Part shown: in pieces, positions 2,473 to 29,477 of the stretch
Layout of the letters: every line of letters begins with the position of its first letter
How positions within the stretch are numbered: the first letter of the stretch is position 1
From: a virus
Direction: 5' to 3' (one strand)
Virus record (IMG/VR): IMGVR_UViG_3300028392_000093
Coordinates: 1-49,560 of that record
Length of the DNA: 49,560 nucleotides
Made by a program: the position numbers and the translations under genes
The notes under the pieces: generated by a model
What the model saw: the letters and a program-made list of their open reading frames with translations, nothing else
Databases searched by the model: none
What the model was told of the DNA's origin: nothing

Positions 2473-2991
2473 ATGAAAAAGAAGCAAAAAACATACAAAA
2501 CTTGGAAAAAAGGAACATCTTGCGAAGAAAAGCTTCAAACGGGTAGTTATTTTAAAAGAACTTTCAAAACGCAATTTGCAAACAATACAAGGTCTTTTAT
2601 TTCTTTTTTAGGAAAAATCCTTAACAGCGGACAATATTTACCCCCTGCTTCTGCAACACGTGACAAGATAAAAGAAAAAATAAAAATATCAAATTTCATT
2701 GCGGTTATGCGAATTCTTTACAAAATGAATGATACGCAAACGGAGGAATTTTTAATGCATTACCGCAAAAGAAACCCGGCTTATGGCGTAAAACGTATCA
2801 CCGATAAATGTTATTTAAAAAGCTTTTGCAGTCAATATTTCAATTGTGAGTTAGGAGAAATTCCTAAAAATCTTGAAAGTGCGAAAAGGAATAAAGTTGA
2901 TTCTAAAATGAGGGAATATTTGCAGGAAGCTTTAGAGAAGGCAAAAGACCCACTTGTAAAAAAAGCTATCAAACGTCATTTAAAACACTAA
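2473..2991 (+). CDS. Unknown basic protein
   Basis: Product of 172 residues, strongly basic, beginning with a Lys-rich stretch. Helical segments predominate in the second half. No motif recognised. The high charge suggests nucleic-acid binding. It starts ten bases after the metallopeptidase gene and is the last gene before the promoter at 3009, so it probably ends the first left-arm operon. I see no clear hairpin terminator after it. Confidence 0.55.
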   Translation: MKKKQKTYKTWKKGTSCEEKLQTGSYFKRTFKTQFANNTRSFISFLGKILNSGQYLPPASATRDKIKEKIKISNFIAVMRILYKMNDTQTEEFLMHYRKRNPAYGVKRITDKCYLKSFCSQYFNCELGEIPKNLESAKRNKVDSKMREYLQEALEKAKDPLVKKAIKRHLKH

Positions 2992-3008
2992 ATAAAATAA
3001 AATGTCGC

Positions 3009-3061
3009 TTGACAATTGATAATATATTGTTTATGTTGTATTTGAAACAAATCTTTTTGCT
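3009..3061 (+). promoter_or_regulatory. Sigma70-like promoter with TGAAACAA leader
   Basis: TTGACA at 3009-3014, a 17-base spacer, then TATGTT at 3032-3037. Five bases later the sequence TGAAACAA begins at 3043, and an ATG follows at 3062. The same -10 to TGAAACAA distance occurs at the promoters at 42455 and 48015. It would drive the operon from 3062. Confidence 0.65.
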
Positions 3062-3241
3062 ATGAAAACTAGGGAGACTATTCAGATGGAAATATTGGAA
3101 ATAATAATTGTGATAGAAAAGCTAGAAATAAAGCAGTTTGATGATTTAAACGATGCAGATAAAAGAAATTTGAATAGAAATCTTGAGGAGCTTAAATTAA
3201 AAGTGAAAATAGCGGAAAGTGAGTTAAAAAATATTAAATGA
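3062..3241 (+). CDS. Small coiled-coil protein, first gene of operon
   Basis: An ATG at 3062 opens a 59-residue frame ending in TGA at 3239-3241. The start lies 25 bases after the -10 box of the promoter at 3009. The peptide is rich in Lys, Glu, Leu and Ile, with heptad-like spacing across its length, so it is probably a short coiled coil. It is followed four bases later by another coiled-coil gene. No family recognised. Confidence 0.55.
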   Translation: MKTRETIQMEILEIIIVIEKLEIKQFDDLNDADKRNLNRNLEELKLKVKIAESELKNIK

Positions 3242-3245
3242 TTGT

Positions 3246-3464
3246 ATGAAACTTTTATCAAAATTAAAAGACTTTTTAAAGTCTAAAAAGTTTAAAGAAC
3301 TTGAAAATGAGAATATAGAACTTGAACGTAAATTGGCTATAGTTACGGCAACAATGGAATACCACGAACGCCGTGAACGGGAATGGACTATTCTAGCCCT
3401 AGAGTTAAGAGCAAAATGTAATAAACTTGAAAAATGTAATAACCTTGAAAATTTTAATTTTTAA
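3246..3464 (+). CDS. Small coiled-coil protein
   Basis: Product of 72 residues. The middle is a long charged helix (KELENENIELERKLA region) with leucine heptads, then a short NLE-rich tail. Its stop is separated by one base from the next ATG (TAATATG), suggesting translational coupling. Similar in size and style to the gene before it. Function unknown; phage coiled-coil peptides of this kind may be accessory or inhibitor proteins. Confidence 0.55.
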   Translation: MKLLSKLKDFLKSKKFKELENENIELERKLAIVTATMEYHERREREWTILALELRAKCNKLEKCNNLENFNF

Positions 3465-3465
3465 T

Positions 3466-4101
3466 ATGACAGATTTAACATACACAATCGCACACATTAA
3501 AGTTGGTGCTGAAAAACACTGGGAGGAAGTAGGGGGTTTCGTGAGTGGGGATAAAAGAAAGTTAAAAATTTCAGATGATGAGCTACTTGAGGCAAAAGAA
3601 AAAGTGGATAATAGTCAAAATAATTATGGATATTGGGTAAATGTTTATAATGAAAAATATAACGCATACACAAAACCAACTAAGCAAGAAATGATGCAGA
3701 AATTAGATGCGGAGACAGATTTATTGATAAGGGAATATGAAGCTTTAAAAAAGGGATTGGAACGCAACGATAATCACCAACTTTCCAATTTTGCAAACGA
3801 ATTAGGGGCTAAGATTTATGGGGGCGTTGAAGATGAGAAGGATTTTTATTTAGTGATGCCTACTGCAAGGGATTTAAAAGCTGGGGATTTTACAAAAGAT
3901 TTTTTGATTGGCTTTGGGGAGTATGTAGCTTGGCGAAGACAATATAATTATGGGTTTTACTGCATTCAGGCAAGCAATAAAGAAGTTATGTTTATTGCTT
4001 ATGAAAAAGATTATGTATTCCCTAAAAAAGGCAACATCTTCCAAGAATACGCACGCATTGGAATAATAGAAAACGATTTATACAAACAATTTATTAAATA
4101 A
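3466..4101 (+). CDS. Unknown protein, intact copy of a duplicated gene
   Basis: Product of 211 residues starting MTDLTYTIAHIKVGAEKHW. The ATG at 3466 is preferred over an in-frame ATG at 3427 because it follows the previous stop in a TAATATG junction and because its paralogue at 5241 begins at the equivalent ATG. The C-terminal half has aromatic-rich stretches and a KKGNIFQEYARIG segment near the end. I do not recognise the family. Both ends are also found, degraded, in the pseudogene at 5241-5486, so this is the functional copy of a tandem duplication. Confidence 0.65.
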   Translation: MTDLTYTIAHIKVGAEKHWEEVGGFVSGDKRKLKISDDELLEAKEKVDNSQNNYGYWVNVYNEKYNAYTKPTKQEMMQKLDAETDLLIREYEALKKGLERNDNHQLSNFANELGAKIYGGVEDEKDFYLVMPTARDLKAGDFTKDFLIGFGEYVAWRRQYNYGFYCIQASNKEVMFIAYEKDYVFPKKGNIFQEYARIGIIENDLYKQFIK

Positions 4102-14487: not shown

Positions 14488-15453
14488 TTACCAAGCAAGT
14501 AAATAAATTGCATCAACAATATAAGGTTGCATATTGTTATGAGGTTGGCCGCCGCCAACTTGGCTTGTTTCTTGCGTTTGATCGGATGTTGGTGAAGTAT
14601 AGCGAGAAGTCTGACCAAAAGAAACATATGCTATTTGTCTAGAATATTGATGTTGATGCGGTGGAATTTCATTTATTGTTAGAGTATGCGTTGCCTTCCC
14701 CCCTGTCGTTCCTATATTATATCCAGTTCCCATACCAATTGATACTATTCCGTTTCTATTTTCTAAAACAACACTTCCAGTCCAACCTCTATCTGCAAAC
14801 AGCACAGGAGCATTAGCTTGCGTCAATGTTTGCCCGTTGAATAAATATGCTTTTACCCCATTAGAAAAAGTTTGAATTGTAGGAACAGTATTGCCAGTAA
14901 AATATTTAAAAGTTCTTATTTCTCCAAGTTCTGTAGGGTTTTTATACGCAGTCAATATATTAATGTCTGGAACAACGTTAGAGGTGGAGCCAGGAGCTAA
15001 CTGAACTACGCCTGCTGCACTTGTGGTGGCAGGTAATAAATTTTTTAAATCGCCACAAAATTTCCAATAAGCATTGTCTGTTAAAATATTATTGAAATTT
15101 TCATCTACTCTTGAATAATATACCTCTATGCCATTTGGGGCGAGAACTGGCGCGTATTGATTATAAGTTACTGTGCTATCCCAAGGCAATAATGTGCCAC
15201 TTCTTTGGGCGTGTTGAATGTTGGAGGACATCAAAAAAGCAGGAGTGTTTTCGGTCTCTTGAATAGGGTTGACAAGCTGTCCCCCTGCGTTTCCAATCAT
15301 TGAGGTGCTACCGTTTGCAAAATAAGAATTTTGCAATATTGCAGGGTCAGTACTGTAAATTGGCGCTCCTGAAGTAGTAGAACCAGGTACGCCAATTAAT
15401 TTTTGGTTTGGGTTTCCTATGGCATTTTCGCCGTAAATTTTTTGTTCTGACAT
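14488..15453 (-). CDS. Tail collar-domain fibre protein with chitin-binding-like module
   Basis: Product of 321 residues. The C-terminal third carries the tail-collar signature: GGKATHTLTINEIPPHQHQY followed later by GGGQPHNNMQPYIV, in which His residues coordinate a metal. Residues about 92-137 hold a second module, LLPWDSTVTYNQYAPV ... VYYSRVDENFNN ... NAYWKF. It matches the aromatic spacing of the small CBM5/12 chitin-binding fold often found in phage fibres. The protein probably forms a short tail fibre. A similar module is inserted in the neck adaptor at 27039. Confidence 0.8.
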   Translation of the reverse strand: MSEQKIYGENAIGNPNQKLIGVPGSTTSGAPIYSTDPAILQNSYFANGSTSMIGNAGGQLVNPIQETENTPAFLMSSNIQHAQRSGTLLPWDSTVTYNQYAPVLAPNGIEVYYSRVDENFNNILTDNAYWKFCGDLKNLLPATTSAAGVVQLAPGSTSNVVPDINILTAYKNPTELGEIRTFKYFTGNTVPTIQTFSNGVKAYLFNGQTLTQANAPVLFADRGWTGSVVLENRNGIVSIGMGTGYNIGTTGGKATHTLTINEIPPHQHQYSRQIAYVSFGQTSRYTSPTSDQTQETSQVGGGQPHNNMQPYIVDAIYLLAW

Positions 15454-24003: not shown

Positions 24004-25533
24004 TTAATTTTCTAATAAAACAGGGACTGAAAAAGTGTGGAAAGCTCCTGACCTTTTAGCCGCTATTTGTATAGTTGGTGCAATTCTTTGTTCTCTATAA
24101 GATTGCAATTGTTGTGCTATAGGTTGACTATACATATACCAACCCTTTGTAGATACATCAGTTAAAAATTGCATCGTATTTCCAAAAGTTTCAGAACTGT
24201 TCCAAGTTCCAAGAGCTATAACCCCATTAGACACAAATTGTGACAACACTTGGGCTACGGCATTTTTTACCATTGTCATGCCTGCCTCCGTTTGTGGTAT
24301 TTTTGTATTTGTTGCACGCAATACATTAAATATTGCGTATTGACAATAAAATTCTAAAGCTATGTCATCAATTACATTGTTAGCATACCCGTTGCCCCCT
24401 GTAGAAATCGCAAAAGCATTGTTCCCGACCATCGGATAATAATCGCACCCAGCCGTTTCTAGCGTTGGATACAAACTGTCATAAATTATATCTGGAGCAA
24501 GCCCATTAATTTGCTTTCCTTGTGAAGTTTTAGCTGTAGAATTGGCGTTATAATTAACCCCAGCCATCAATGTTAAAAATCCAGCTTTAGCTTCGACCCT
24601 TAAAGCATAATTGGTATAAATAGCATACCTTGCTTTATTTTGGTTAGCCGTAGCGTTCGGCAAAGCTAGTAAATTAATATCTTCCGTATTGCAAATAAGA
24701 TTTTGCAAATAATATCCAGTTAAACCGTTCACAAACGCAGATGCGGTCTCTAAAGCTGTATTTTCCAAATCTAAATCAGTTGCAATCCCAGAATATTGAA
24801 TTGCATGAAATGTCCTTGCAATAGCTTCGGGCAACGTCTCTCCACTTGAATTCGTGCCGATTGTTGGCTCAACTGACCCACAATTTAAGTAATCGCTACC
24901 TGTAATGTCAGTACCAGTTCCTTGCGCCGTAATTACAATAGTAGAATTTATGCCGAATTTTTTAGATGAAAACGTAATGCTGTTATTTACAACGGCAACA
25001 GTAACATTAAATAAATTTTTTTGAAATATATTTGCAACATCTTGCAAAGTATTGATTGCTGTAAAATCTAAATTCAAAACATCAAAAGTTGAGCCGTCAA
25101 TATTAATTGTAAAAGCTCCGTCCGTTTTTGTTTGAAAATTTGTAATATTTGCTAAAATATTAGGAGTTGTAAATGTTCCCGATGTAGCACTCACTGAATT
25201 TAACATTGGTGCAATATATAGCACTCCCCCCGCTGAAGTTATATTATTACTTGCTTGAAATAAAATGTTTGCAAATTTACTTGCATTAGAATTTGTGCCA
25301 CAATCTTGTATAACGGCTTTTGAAGACACGTAACTTCTATATGTATCTTGAAACGGTGTTTCGGTTGTAAATAAAATTATATTATTTGCGTTAGGTGTCG
25401 GAACTGCCGTTGGAACTGAGCTAACGGAAACAGCAACTATTCTGTTAATATCTATACCAGCTAAAGGCGTTTTGCCTAAAATGGTATTTGCACGCAATCC
25501 GGCGTTTAAATTATTTTTTGCCATAAAATCCAT
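24004..25533 (-). CDS. Tail sheath protein, DUF3383-type
   Basis: Product of 509 residues (506 if the fourth codon, ATG at 25524, is used). DINRIVAVSVSSVPTA at the start, then a long beta/alpha domain and a C-terminal strand-rich end (AFHTFSVPVLLEN) match DUF3383 sheath proteins. It contracts around the tube to drive the spike. The first ATG overlaps the stop of the upstream gene (TAATG). Length is normal. Confidence 0.8.
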   Translation of the reverse strand: MDFMAKNNLNAGLRANTILGKTPLAGIDINRIVAVSVSSVPTAVPTPNANNIILFTTETPFQDTYRSYVSSKAVIQDCGTNSNASKFANILFQASNNITSAGGVLYIAPMLNSVSATSGTFTTPNILANITNFQTKTDGAFTINIDGSTFDVLNLDFTAINTLQDVANIFQKNLFNVTVAVVNNSITFSSKKFGINSTIVITAQGTGTDITGSDYLNCGSVEPTIGTNSSGETLPEAIARTFHAIQYSGIATDLDLENTALETASAFVNGLTGYYLQNLICNTEDINLLALPNATANQNKARYAIYTNYALRVEAKAGFLTLMAGVNYNANSTAKTSQGKQINGLAPDIIYDSLYPTLETAGCDYYPMVGNNAFAISTGGNGYANNVIDDIALEFYCQYAIFNVLRATNTKIPQTEAGMTMVKNAVAQVLSQFVSNGVIALGTWNSSETFGNTMQFLTDVSTKGWYMYSQPIAQQLQSYREQRIAPTIQIAAKRSGAFHTFSVPVLLEN

Positions 25534-26197: not shown

Positions 26198-26665
26198 TTA
26201 TTTTACATTAATTATATCGTGGGAAATGCTTCGTCTTAATTCCCCCGTATCAATCAAGGGTGAAGAACTTTTTTTTAATTTTATTGTCATTGGGGCATTA
26301 GGAGACCACATACCAAAACCTTTGGTATCAAAAGCACCCTGAATAACTCCTACGCTAAATAACCCTATTTGATTCAAAGAAGTTTCAATATCATTATTTT
26401 TTAAGCTATTTGCCAAACTTTTTTGTGCAAATCGTCCTATTTCTTCTTGCTTTGTAGTAATAGGCATTTTTAAAAATGAACGTGCAGGAATTTTTTTGTT
26501 TTCTGAACCAAATTCTTGCATTGCTCCTATTGTGGCATTTGAAAGACCATCATTCCTTGAATTATCATTTCCCAATATACCCACTCTAATTGCTTTTTTA
26601 TTAGATAGTAAAGCATTTGTTAGATTTCCTATCCCCTTTGTGTTAATTTTAATTTGACATTTCAT
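26198..26665 (-). CDS. HK97 gp10-like neck protein
   Basis: Product of 155 residues from the ATG at 26665, which follows the upstream stop in a TAATATG junction; an upstream ATG at 26689 lies inside the preceding gene. Carries AIRVGILGND, then MQEFGSENKKIPARSFLKMPI. The last motif (IPxRxFLxxxI) is the signature of gp10-like phage neck proteins. It would form part of the head-tail connector. Confidence 0.8.
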   Translation of the reverse strand: MKCQIKINTKGIGNLTNALLSNKKAIRVGILGNDNSRNDGLSNATIGAMQEFGSENKKIPARSFLKMPITTKQEEIGRFAQKSLANSLKNNDIETSLNQIGLFSVGVIQGAFDTKGFGMWSPNAPMTIKLKKSSSPLIDTGELRRSISHDIINVK

Positions 26666-26666
26666 A

Positions 26667-27032
26667 TTATTTGGCAGTTTGAATTGCATCTACTTGGGCG
26701 TAACCATAATCATTATATAGCCATTTACCTTTCGTCTTGTAAGAAGCGTTATTAAAAATAATTTGAAACGTTAAAGAGTTCAGAAGGGTTAAAGTTATAT
26801 TATTCTGTTGTAATATACTTCTTCTAATGTGCACCATTTGCGTACTGTATTCTATTTGTTCGGTAGGCACAATTTTTAAATTCCTCAAATCTAAAGGCTG
26901 AACTATGCCTATCAAATTATATGTTTTCCCTGTTGGTATATTTATACCTTGCACAACTGTGTTACTTTGCACTATTAGTCGCAATGGCTGTTCTAAACCA
27001 TCAAAAGCCAGAGAAACATCTATAACAATCAT
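26667..27032 (-). CDS. Head-tail joining protein, unknown family
   Basis: Product of 121 residues, beta-rich with hydrophobic strands. No diagnostic motif. It stands between the Ad1-type adaptor and the gp10-like protein, a slot usually filled by a head completion or stopper protein. One base separates its stop from the next gene start. Confidence 0.55.
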   Translation of the reverse strand: MIVIDVSLAFDGLEQPLRLIVQSNTVVQGINIPTGKTYNLIGIVQPLDLRNLKIVPTEQIEYSTQMVHIRRSILQQNNITLTLLNSLTFQIIFNNASYKTKGKWLYNDYGYAQVDAIQTAK

Positions 27033-27038
27033 AAAATT

Positions 27039-27629
27039 TTAATTAGGTATTCCACCAAAAGAATATAGCATTTTAAATCTTGCTCTCAAATCTACAAGCA
27101 TCATATATTGCTGTCCTTCAAGAGTGCGATTAAGAGTTGAATATAAAATTGAACTAGTAACGCTTTCGGGGATAAGTTGCCCGAAACCCACATTTCCTGC
27201 ATGCTGAGTATTGGCAACCCCTATGCTAGCAGGTCTTTGTCCTATATATTGGAATTGTTGAGGCTTAATATAATATGAAATCATATGTGCCACCAATAAA
27301 CAATAAGCATAAAGTATTAAAACATCTGAATCGCAAGTAAAAATATCCGCAGGAAATAAACCAGAAGCCAATAAAAACGCTGTAGTAATATCTGCATCAC
27401 TAATGTAAGAATATTGATTAGCCTTGTCCGTAATCCAATAAGTTGCATTAGGTGGGGCTTGGTCTGTATTCTGAAGAATTGCCTGGTAAAATGTATTGCC
27501 AAAAAACACTACATCATTTGCTTCATAAGGTTGTGTGTTAGACCACATAGGAAAATACGGATACCCACCTATCCCTTGTGGAAATTGTGATTTAAATTGA
27601 ATAATTGTGATTGTATCAATATTAATCAT
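27039..27629 (-). CDS. DUF4054-like adaptor with inserted carbohydrate-binding module
   Basis: Product of 196 residues from the ATG at 27629, which overlaps the upstream stop (ATGATTAA); an earlier ATG at 27656 is deeper in that gene. FKSQFPQ at the start and YISDADITTAFLLASGLFP ... LILYAYCLLVAHMI later match DUF4054 head-tail adaptors. Between them, about residues 25-70, lies a foreign-looking module: YPYFPMWSNTQPYEANDVVF, then TFYQAILQNTDQAPPNATYW. It has the W...Y..GD.V...G..Y.....N....P.....YW pattern of CBM5/12. An adhesion-type module in a neck adaptor is unusual. Confidence 0.7.
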   Translation of the reverse strand: MINIDTITIIQFKSQFPQGIGGYPYFPMWSNTQPYEANDVVFFGNTFYQAILQNTDQAPPNATYWITDKANQYSYISDADITTAFLLASGLFPADIFTCDSDVLILYAYCLLVAHMISYYIKPQQFQYIGQRPASIGVANTQHAGNVGFGQLIPESVTSSILYSTLNRTLEGQQYMMLVDLRARFKMLYSFGGIPN

Positions 27630-28161
27630 TTTGAGTTTCCGTTTTTGCTCCTTCAATCATCTCTTTTGACGTTTTTGCTCCTTCAATCATTTCATTTAAC
27701 TTTTTCACACCCCATGTCCCTTTAACATCAATCCCTAAAGCGATAGCTTCGTTTCTTAATGTAGCAACTTCCGTTTCAGTGTAGCCATTGCCTCCAGAGG
27801 TTTTAGGAGTTAAAATGTAATTTTCCAAAAACGTTTTTAGTTTATCTGATACTGCTTCATCAATTTGTTTTTTTAATTCTGCAGAAGAATCATTTTTTAT
27901 CTTTTTAGCGGTTTTTATTTCTTTTTCTGCTTCAGCTTCAGAATCAAAACTTGTTAAATCGGGAACGGCATCAAATGAATTGTCTACTACTTGAATTTGA
28001 TTAGGCAAATGCATAGCTTGACGTTCGCCTATATCCTTTGCAACTTTTGCAACGCATTGAGGCATCAGAGTAAAACTTTTCACTTTACCCGTTTTAACGT
28101 CTAAATAAGGCAACACGAAAAGTGCTGTGCTTATGTTTTTAATATTTACTGTTTCAGTCAT
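27622..28161 (-). CDS. Head protein with HeH/LEM-like C-terminus
   Basis: Product of 179 residues. The N-terminal beta part (STALFVLPYLDVKTGKVKSF) is followed by a charged helical linker and a segment TETEVATLRNEAIALGIDVKG that resembles the HeH/LEM-like fold seen at the end of small phage head proteins. The C-terminus has a tandem duplication, EMIEGAKTSK/EMIEGAKTET. It lies between capsid and adaptor genes. Function unknown; possibly a minor capsid or connector-assembly protein. Confidence 0.55.
   Translation of the reverse strand: MTETVNIKNISTALFVLPYLDVKTGKVKSFTLMPQCVAKVAKDIGERQAMHLPNQIQVVDNSFDAVPDLTSFDSEAEAEKEIKTAKKIKNDSSAELKKQIDEAVSDKLKTFLENYILTPKTSGGNGYTETEVATLRNEAIALGIDVKGTWGVKKLNEMIEGAKTSKEMIEGAKTETQND
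27641..27690. repeat. Tandem direct repeat at end of head gene
   Basis: A 20-base sequence (GTTTTTGCTCCTTCAATCAT) occurs at 27641-27660 and 27671-27690, a 30-base period that keeps the frame. It encodes the repeated EMIEGAKT unit, so it can gain or lose copies by slippage without a frameshift. Confidence 0.85.
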
Positions 28162-28175
28162 ACAATTTAAATTAA

Positions 28176-29477
28176 TTAAGCCACTTTATAGATTATTGCC
28201 TCTTGTGGTCTTTTGAAGAATACAGGAGAAAACTGTGCGTATGCCGCTTGAACAAAGTTCATTCCATTTGGAGTCGCCATTGTTGCAAGAGTAAATGGGA
28301 TACTATCTAATTGTAATAATGTTGAAGCGTCATTTCTATACAACATATAAGCGTAGTAACCAAGATTTAATGTTCCCTGAGAAACGGTTTGCAAGTAAGA
28401 TGTCCCAGCTACTGTCACTTTAGTGCCAAACGCTTTTGTTAGATAATTTTCAATATAATCTAGTCTAGTCGTCCCAGCTACAGTAAGATTATTAGGAGCA
28501 TTTGTTATAATTAACACTTGACCCAATAATTTTAGTCTTTCGTCTTCTGGTATTGCAAAGAAATTTGCAGGTCTCACTTTATGAGTTTGCTGAACATTTT
28601 GCACATAACCATTTACAACATTTTCCATAGCGGTGAAAAATTCATCTTGCGTCATGTCGGAAAGTTTTGTTGGAGCCGCTGCCACATTTACCATTGTTGA
28701 AATATTCAACGTTACCTCGGTATTGTTAAATAGTCCATTAAAAGCCTCTCCCCCTGGCAATGGGTTGCCCGGTACACCTAAAAAAGAGGTTTCCATCATT
28801 CCTAATCTAAACATTTCCATTAAGGCACGCATTTTTTCTTCAATAATATTCAAAGGAATACCATTCGCAGAAGCAAAATTAGCTTCAAAAATATCATAAG
28901 CATAACCTTGAGACCATGGCTGTAAAGGAATGGCTTTTTGAAATAATTCAACATTAACTAAATTATTAGAAGCTGTTTGTCCTGCCATTCTTAAACCCTT
29001 TCTAAATTGGTCTGCTCCAATTGGTTGAGTGGCATATTGATATACCTTTTGTTTCCAAGCACCAAAACCTTGCTCCACAGGAACAAATTCCTCTCTGTTC
29101 CAATCTTGAAAAACTGTCCTAGCAATATCAGGAAGAGCAAGCCCAGCTGTAGTAATATTTTGCACCATTCCAGAAGATGCATTATATGAGTTATGCTTCA
29201 AAGCAGATGCTTGATATTTCTCTATTGTATTGCCGCAGAATATAACTTTTCCTTTCTCATCAAAAGTTTGTGTAGGTGCAAACGCCATCGTATTAAGTTC
29301 TGTCAAATGAACATGCGAAACCGAAGTAATTGCGTCTTTTATGCCACGACCGCCATAATTTGGCATTTTGCTATGCCCTTCGCCAGTTCTTGTGGTAATT
29401 AAGTTGTGCGCAAAGTCATCTAAACGACTATTGTCTAATTCTTTGCCAAATTGTAAAGCTGTTGCGTAATTTGCCAT
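28176..29477 (-). CDS. Major capsid protein, DUF2184-type
   Basis: Product of 433 residues, the size of DUF2184 capsid proteins. Features include a central AWKQKVYQYATQPIGADQFRK region, IPEDERLKLL and a C-terminal FVQAAYAQFSPVFFKRPQEA, all resembling this HK97-fold family. It lies between the cement protein and the head completion genes and downstream of the protease, the expected order. Roughly 400 copies would form the icosahedral shell. Confidence 0.8.
   Translation of the reverse strand: MANYATALQFGKELDNSRLDDFAHNLITTRTGEGHSKMPNYGGRGIKDAITSVSHVHLTELNTMAFAPTQTFDEKGKVIFCGNTIEKYQASALKHNSYNASSGMVQNITTAGLALPDIARTVFQDWNREEFVPVEQGFGAWKQKVYQYATQPIGADQFRKGLRMAGQTASNNLVNVELFQKAIPLQPWSQGYAYDIFEANFASANGIPLNIIEEKMRALMEMFRLGMMETSFLGVPGNPLPGGEAFNGLFNNTEVTLNISTMVNVAAAPTKLSDMTQDEFFTAMENVVNGYVQNVQQTHKVRPANFFAIPEDERLKLLGQVLIITNAPNNLTVAGTTRLDYIENYLTKAFGTKVTVAGTSYLQTVSQGTLNLGYYAYMLYRNDASTLLQLDSIPFTLATMATPNGMNFVQAAYAQFSPVFFKRPQEAIIYKVA

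Follow-up and report, generated by a model that had tools for sequence, protein, structure and literature searches.

The head-tail adaptor encoded in the window (the whole stretch of viral DNA analyzed here, 49,560 nucleotides) is interrupted by a segment that is predicted, with good support, to fold independently into a small domain of CBM5/12 type. A handful of solved phages have adaptors with accessory beta domains, of a different type in each case; here, the fold of a chitin-binding module appears to have become a fixed part of the adaptor throughout much of a broad clade of phages. Our literature search found no earlier description of a CBM domain in a head-tail adaptor, which is no proof that none exists. 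We favor a role in protein docking or bracing at the neck over glycan adhesion, and consider it probable, if only just. The case also cautions against taking the CBM fold of a structural phage protein, on its own, as evidence that the protein binds glycans.

The adaptor gene and its inserted segment

The open reading frame at 27039-27629 is intact on the minus strand, with its ATG at 27629 and its stop codon at 27041-27039. The surrounding block (Table 1) follows the standard myophage order: portal (32157), Mu F-like gene (31183), capsid (28176), adaptor, probable head-closure, Neck1, probable terminator, and DUF3383 sheath. The position of the adaptor gene agrees with that of the genes annotated as "head completion adaptor" in Vibrio phages 1.052.A and PP270. 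The window protein did not match PF13262 (DUF4054), whether searched whole or as the core alone, and an NCBIfam search gave no match; PF13262 was matched by 40 of its 41 aligned relatives, the closest of which (L016) is 61% identical. In an alignment with nine such "head completion adaptor" proteins, all nine of which match DUF4054, the window sequence keeps the conserved family residues, and a profile search from the adaptor alignment retrieved the solved adaptors 7kln, 8hdr, and 8fvh. The earlier note had labeled the protein a DUF4054-type adaptor, and this assignment holds by way of relatives, synteny, and the profile matches to solved adaptors rather than by a direct Pfam match.

Table 1. 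Positions in the window of the adaptor gene, its parts, and neighboring or related genes
Feature	Positions	Strand	Basis
Predicted head-tail adaptor gene, DUF4054-type, 196 aa (P0002)	27039..27629	-	ORF; alignment with DUF4054 adaptors; profile match to 7kln, 8hdr, 8fvh
Adaptor N-terminal part, residues 1-18 (helix 9-15, FKSQFPQ)	27576..27629	-	alignment; model
Inserted segment, residues 19-76, containing the CBM5/12-like module	27402..27575	-	alignment; pLDDT 92-97; Foldseek
CBM5/12-like core, residues 28-66 (W29, Y35, V41, F42/F43, F47/Y48, W65)	27432..27548	-	PF02839 match, residues 29-58; column comparison with ChiA1 ChBD
Adaptor helical core, residues 77-196	27042..27401	-	alignment; model
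Neighbor: probable head-closure protein, 121 aa	26667..27032	-	position only; synteny
Neighbor: Neck1 / tail-completion protein	26198..26689	-	phrog_222, E 9.6e-42
Neighbor: DUF3383 tail sheath; bait for relatives	24004..25533	-	PF11863, E 1.2e-49
Neighbor: major capsid protein	28176..29477	-	PF09950, E 1.3e-9
Tail fiber; weak second CBM5/12-like module (residues 91-135, approximately)	14488..15453	-	module profile; clearer in sister phage

The probable head-closure protein matched nothing in Pfam or PHROG, and compared with Vibrio phages 1.052.A and PP270, the order of its gene and Neck1 (26198-27032) appears to be reversed. At 27640-27690, in the C-terminal end of the ORF preceding the adaptor (27622-28161), a short direct DNA repeat doubles the peptide MIEGAKT.

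Within the adaptor, approximately 40-47 extra residues follow FPQ18. In a 41-row alignment, residues 1-18 and 77-196 align throughout with ordinary DUF4054 adaptors, while the stretch between residues 18 and 77 is missing from relatives such as L113, L060, L086, and L081. The motifs F-x-x-x-F and D-x-D-I, which flank the insert, lie 66 residues apart in the window but 19-30 apart in relatives that lack the module. The insertion of about 45 residues after FPQ that had been proposed from the window alone was thus recovered by aligning the adaptors of related phages. The opposite reading, in which the region is an integral part of the adaptor, is contradicted by close relatives without the module and by its predicted ability to fold alone. 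The adaptors of XM1 (gp1), Pam3, and E217 (7kln, 8hdr, 8fvh) likewise have a homologous core but lack the inserted module; in the line-up with XM1 gp1, the beta-hairpin region 142-149 of the modeled window core corresponds to the lumen insertion of that protein (PMC10457771).

The PF02839 (CBM_5_12) profile scored 14.6 bits (E 0.034) against the whole window protein and 17.7 bits (E 0.0037) against the isolated insert, both below the Pfam gathering score of 26.2 bits. Twelve of the 41 aligned relatives matched the same profile (best E 3.9e-5), and a profile of the module itself recovered 36 adaptors, the window included. The ORF, its coordinates, and the aromatic spacing typical of CBM5/12 were all as originally described, and the predicted fold (below) agrees with the motif.

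Relatives were fetched using an alignment of the DUF3383 sheath, which gave 80 viral and 70 genome loci with adaptors in 122 ORFs; single-protein scans of viral contigs with the adaptor, capsid, sheath, terminase, or Neck1 as queries retrieved none. A tblastn search of the window adaptor against GenBank phages returned only weak module matches, mainly in tail fibers, and the module-bearing L075 adaptor used as a query matched Bdellovibrio phage phi1422 over the core only.

Predicted fold and a candidate second module in a fiber

The AlphaFold2 model of the whole adaptor, built with 41 sequences, had a mean pLDDT of 84.3, with values of 92-97 across the insert, and the module modeled alone reached a mean of 83.6. 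Three short strands are predicted in the insert, of which strands 40-43 and 46-50 pair in the model. Compared with the PDB using Foldseek, the insert matched CBM5/12 domains almost exclusively, with a probability of 1.00 to 2d49, Serratia ChiB, and 4tx8; the overlay with 2d49 gave 1.3 Å over 41 columns. A V. cholerae deacetylase was matched as well. Among phage proteins, matches were found to the tail fibers of Agrobacterium phage 7-7-1, the Milano receptor-binding complex, and the phiAB6 tailspike (probability again 1.00 for the phage 7-7-1 and Milano fiber modules), and the Anabaena contractile-injection baseplate protein 7b5h was matched with a probability of 0.99. With so tiny a domain, the Foldseek E-values are modest, and it is the probability and consistency of the matches that carry weight. 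The comparison of an AlphaFold-type model with CBM5/12 folds, which the earlier note had suggested as a check, is therefore in agreement with the proposed fold. Relative to known CBM5/12 domains (PF02839; ChiA1 1ed7, ChiC 2d49, ChiB), the window insert shares the fold, the spacing of core aromatics, and the final Trp, but lacks the chitin-contact aromatics, has additional aromatic residues at 42 and 47, and scores below the Pfam cut-off.

That low score, when the window is taken alone, would be expected if the segment were simply one of the adaptor's variable loops, resembling CBM5/12 by chance. We rejected this explanation as extremely improbable, given the confident independent fold with its CBM5/12 structure matches, the significant PF02839 match among relatives, and the existence of relatives with no insert whatsoever.

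A module of the same kind had also been reported in a "collar-type" fiber at 14488. Among the window ORFs, this gene was the best non-adaptor match to the module profile, but a weak one (9.2 bits, i-Evalue 0.012; hhalign probability 1.5%). The syntenic fiber of the sister phage (L016's contig, ORF L167:23-955) matched the profile clearly, with E 7e-7. The second module is clearer in the sister phage, and for the window itself it is suggested by the sequence comparison. The "collar-type" label, on the other hand, was an accident of naming: the gene is preceded by those for the baseplate wedge and DUF2612, and it matches tail-fiber families. Similar modules were found in several other phages of the clade, in large ORFs that lie away from the neck genes and probably encode fibers. 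With modules in adaptors as well as in probable fibers, these phages would have the fold at either end of their tail.

Distribution and probable losses of the module

Of the 121 classified loci, 36 (35 besides the window) have the insert at the same place in the adaptor, a prevalence valid only for this sample, in which loci were ranked by how closely their sheath resembles that of the window. On a tree of the 121 sheaths, which is a quick tree with long branches, 33 of the 36 carriers fall inside one supported clade of 38, and at least six changes are required to account for the insert. Three loci (L113, L032, and L036) lack the module yet are nested in the carrier clade, which suggests losses. 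Carrier hosts include Bacteroidota, Acidobacteriota, Pseudomonadota, Gastranaerophilales, and Gracilibacteria. Among the genome records of carriers are a large isolate contig of Dyadobacter psychrotolerans and bins from metagenomes assigned to Terriglobia, Sphingomonadales, Gastranaerophilales, and Gracilibacteria, although such bins may place phage contigs with the wrong host.

Across carriers, module identity and core identity co-vary (Mantel r 0.54, with none of 2000 permutations as high), as expected for a part that is inherited together with the adaptor. A separate clade (L068, L073, L084, L087, and L088) has a different, Gly-rich insert in the same adaptor loop. Together with the absence of the CBM5/12-like insert from close relatives, this indicates that the loop tolerates domain insertion. 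Due to the apparent losses and the different insert in the same loop, carriers and non-carriers can be compared among natural relatives.

Other extra domains were noted on related adaptors. The Gly-rich repeat insert is about 80 residues long (L087:159-848, L068:837-1547, and L073:960-1649; also in L084 and L088, all in one sister clade), the L090 adaptor (2762-3523) has a C-terminal Ig-like He_PIG domain, and the L052 and L055 adaptors have an N-terminal extra domain, filamin-like in L052, besides the CBM-like module. The adaptor thus seems to tolerate, and repeatedly to acquire, accessory domains.

Aromatic positions and a possible role at the neck

In a column-by-column alignment, the position of ChiA1 W687, the key chitin contact of that protein, was aromatic in none of 30 adaptor modules. 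The same was true (0/30) of the positions after F-Y-x-C, which correspond to the tandem aromatics following Y-x-A-K that make the chitin contact in CBM5. Fiber modules of these phages are likewise without the chitin-contact aromatics, which means that this lack is not peculiar to the neck. In contrast, two positions occupied by Thr in ChiA1 are aromatic in nearly all adaptor modules, position 42 in 28/30 versus 0/16 non-adaptor phage modules and position 47 in 29/30 versus 4/17; the comparison modules are mostly fibers, some from the same phages as the adaptors, and a single clade contributes most of the adaptor-specific aromatics, so that relatedness inflates the significance and Fisher tests overstate independence. 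In the model, residues 42 and 47 should lie on the same side, facing away from core residues 41, 43, and 48.

The missing chitin aromatics, the near-invariant pair at 42 and 47, and the co-divergence of module and core would suit an interface with an unchanging protein better than binding to a host glycan that varies, although positions 42 and 47 could also form a new sugar platform. Binding of glycans, mucin, or capsule, as put forward in the earlier note, is hence not supported.

A dodecameric, portal-bound ring has been shown for XM1 gp1 (PMC10457771) and for E217 gp27, and by homology the window product would form a 12-subunit ring under the portal as well. The CBM5/12-fold mini-domain would sit between the N-terminal helix and the helical core of each subunit, and twelve such domains would make up a peripheral ring around the neck. 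By analogy with R4C and Milano, these domains may serve mainly for docking or bracing, through contacts with the capsid vertex, portal clip, or a collar/whisker protein, with the carbohydrate-binding fold reused and its ancestral sugar site lost.

The adaptor of R4C is likewise a dodecameric head-tail adaptor with an extra beta domain at its periphery, although there the domain is N-terminal, Ig-like, and about 106 residues long, compared with about 45 CBM5/12-like residues after residue 18 in the window. This Ig-like attachment domain is docked on the capsid, and the authors judged a role in adsorption unlikely and considered the domain structural (PMC10276861). In Milano, the beta-sandwich of neck 1 (gp14) forms a peripheral ring that bridges to the capsid and the collar (PMC10491603). 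Milano neck 1, other class-3 neck-1 proteins, T7 gp11, and T4 gp13 share with the window a beta domain inserted into a helical adaptor core. However, the Milano insertion follows residue 50 (51-140) and is a six-stranded sandwich of about twice the size, while that of the window follows residue 18 and has three short strands; the window adaptor thus lacks the six-stranded sandwich after the first helices that characterizes Milano-type class-3 neck 1. From the peripheral domains of the R4C and Milano adaptors, surface exposure of the window module is plausible.

The module might instead be the attachment site for a separate neck appendage protein, such as collar fibers or whiskers; the anchoring of whiskers, raised in the earlier note, would be one form of docking. 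Precedents, which favor docking in general as well, are the XM1 collar spike gp40, which contacts the DUF4054 ring (PMC10457771), and the Milano collar, which is linked to the inserted beta-sandwich of neck 1 (PMC10491603). No collar or whisker gene was identified within the window, and we consider such an attachment site decidedly unlikely.

Against bracing, it can be said that the module is dispensable, being absent from the related L113, L032, and L036, and that weak binding to host cells is known for the neck CBMs of 936 lactococcal phages (PMC6669499). In line with the main idea of the earlier note, twelve exposed neck modules might act as an accessory adhesin that supplements the fibers, each binding host capsule, peptidoglycan, or mucin glycans weakly while avidity strengthens the whole. 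The neck passage structure of 936 phages, with its carbohydrate-binding-type modules, offers a parallel to such an arrangement, but its BppA-type CBMs, for which host binding has been shown, reside on a separate collar-fiber protein and not in the adaptor. The predicted CBM5/12 fold, the related modules in fibers of the same phages, the optional nature of the module, and the display-type domains on related adaptors (Gly-rich insert, Ig-like He_PIG, filamin-like) would all suit an adhesin. Nevertheless, all 30 adaptor modules lack the known chitin-contact aromatics, the module co-diverges with the adaptor core over distant host phyla rather than being swapped, and the near-invariant hydrophobic pair suggests a constant partner. 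We therefore hold an adhesin to be possible but rather doubtful, and docking or bracing remains our preferred role. Still less probable, and in our estimate unlikely, is that the adaptor ring itself is a general display platform, whose CBM5/12 version would be a 12-valent neck lectin ring with a new aromatic sugar platform at 42 and 47. If this were true, one DUF4054 loop would have repeatedly accepted foreign domains, and a lectin ring would have spread over phages of several bacterial phyla.

CBM5/12-like stretches were also noted in other phage proteins. PDB entry 9wwa, an "adaptor protein" for which we found no paper, is, like the window adaptor, encoded just past the major capsid gene, and its residues 65-115 matched the module profile (E 0.0046); the stretch is the same in Parabacteroides phages PD491P1 and PDS1. 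Gp52 of PDS1 (L166:6809-8131, 440 aa, just past the capsid gene) matches 9wwa. Unlike the adaptor relatives of the window, 9wwa (440 aa) has no Pfam DUF4054 match, and together with PDS1 gp52 it apparently represents a second adaptor lineage with a CBM5/12-like module. In podophage MW202722.1, a "phage stabilization protein" encoded after tail tubular protein A (L002:3746-6148) contains a CBM5/12-like module that is 51% identical over 37 residues and shares APPNATYW.
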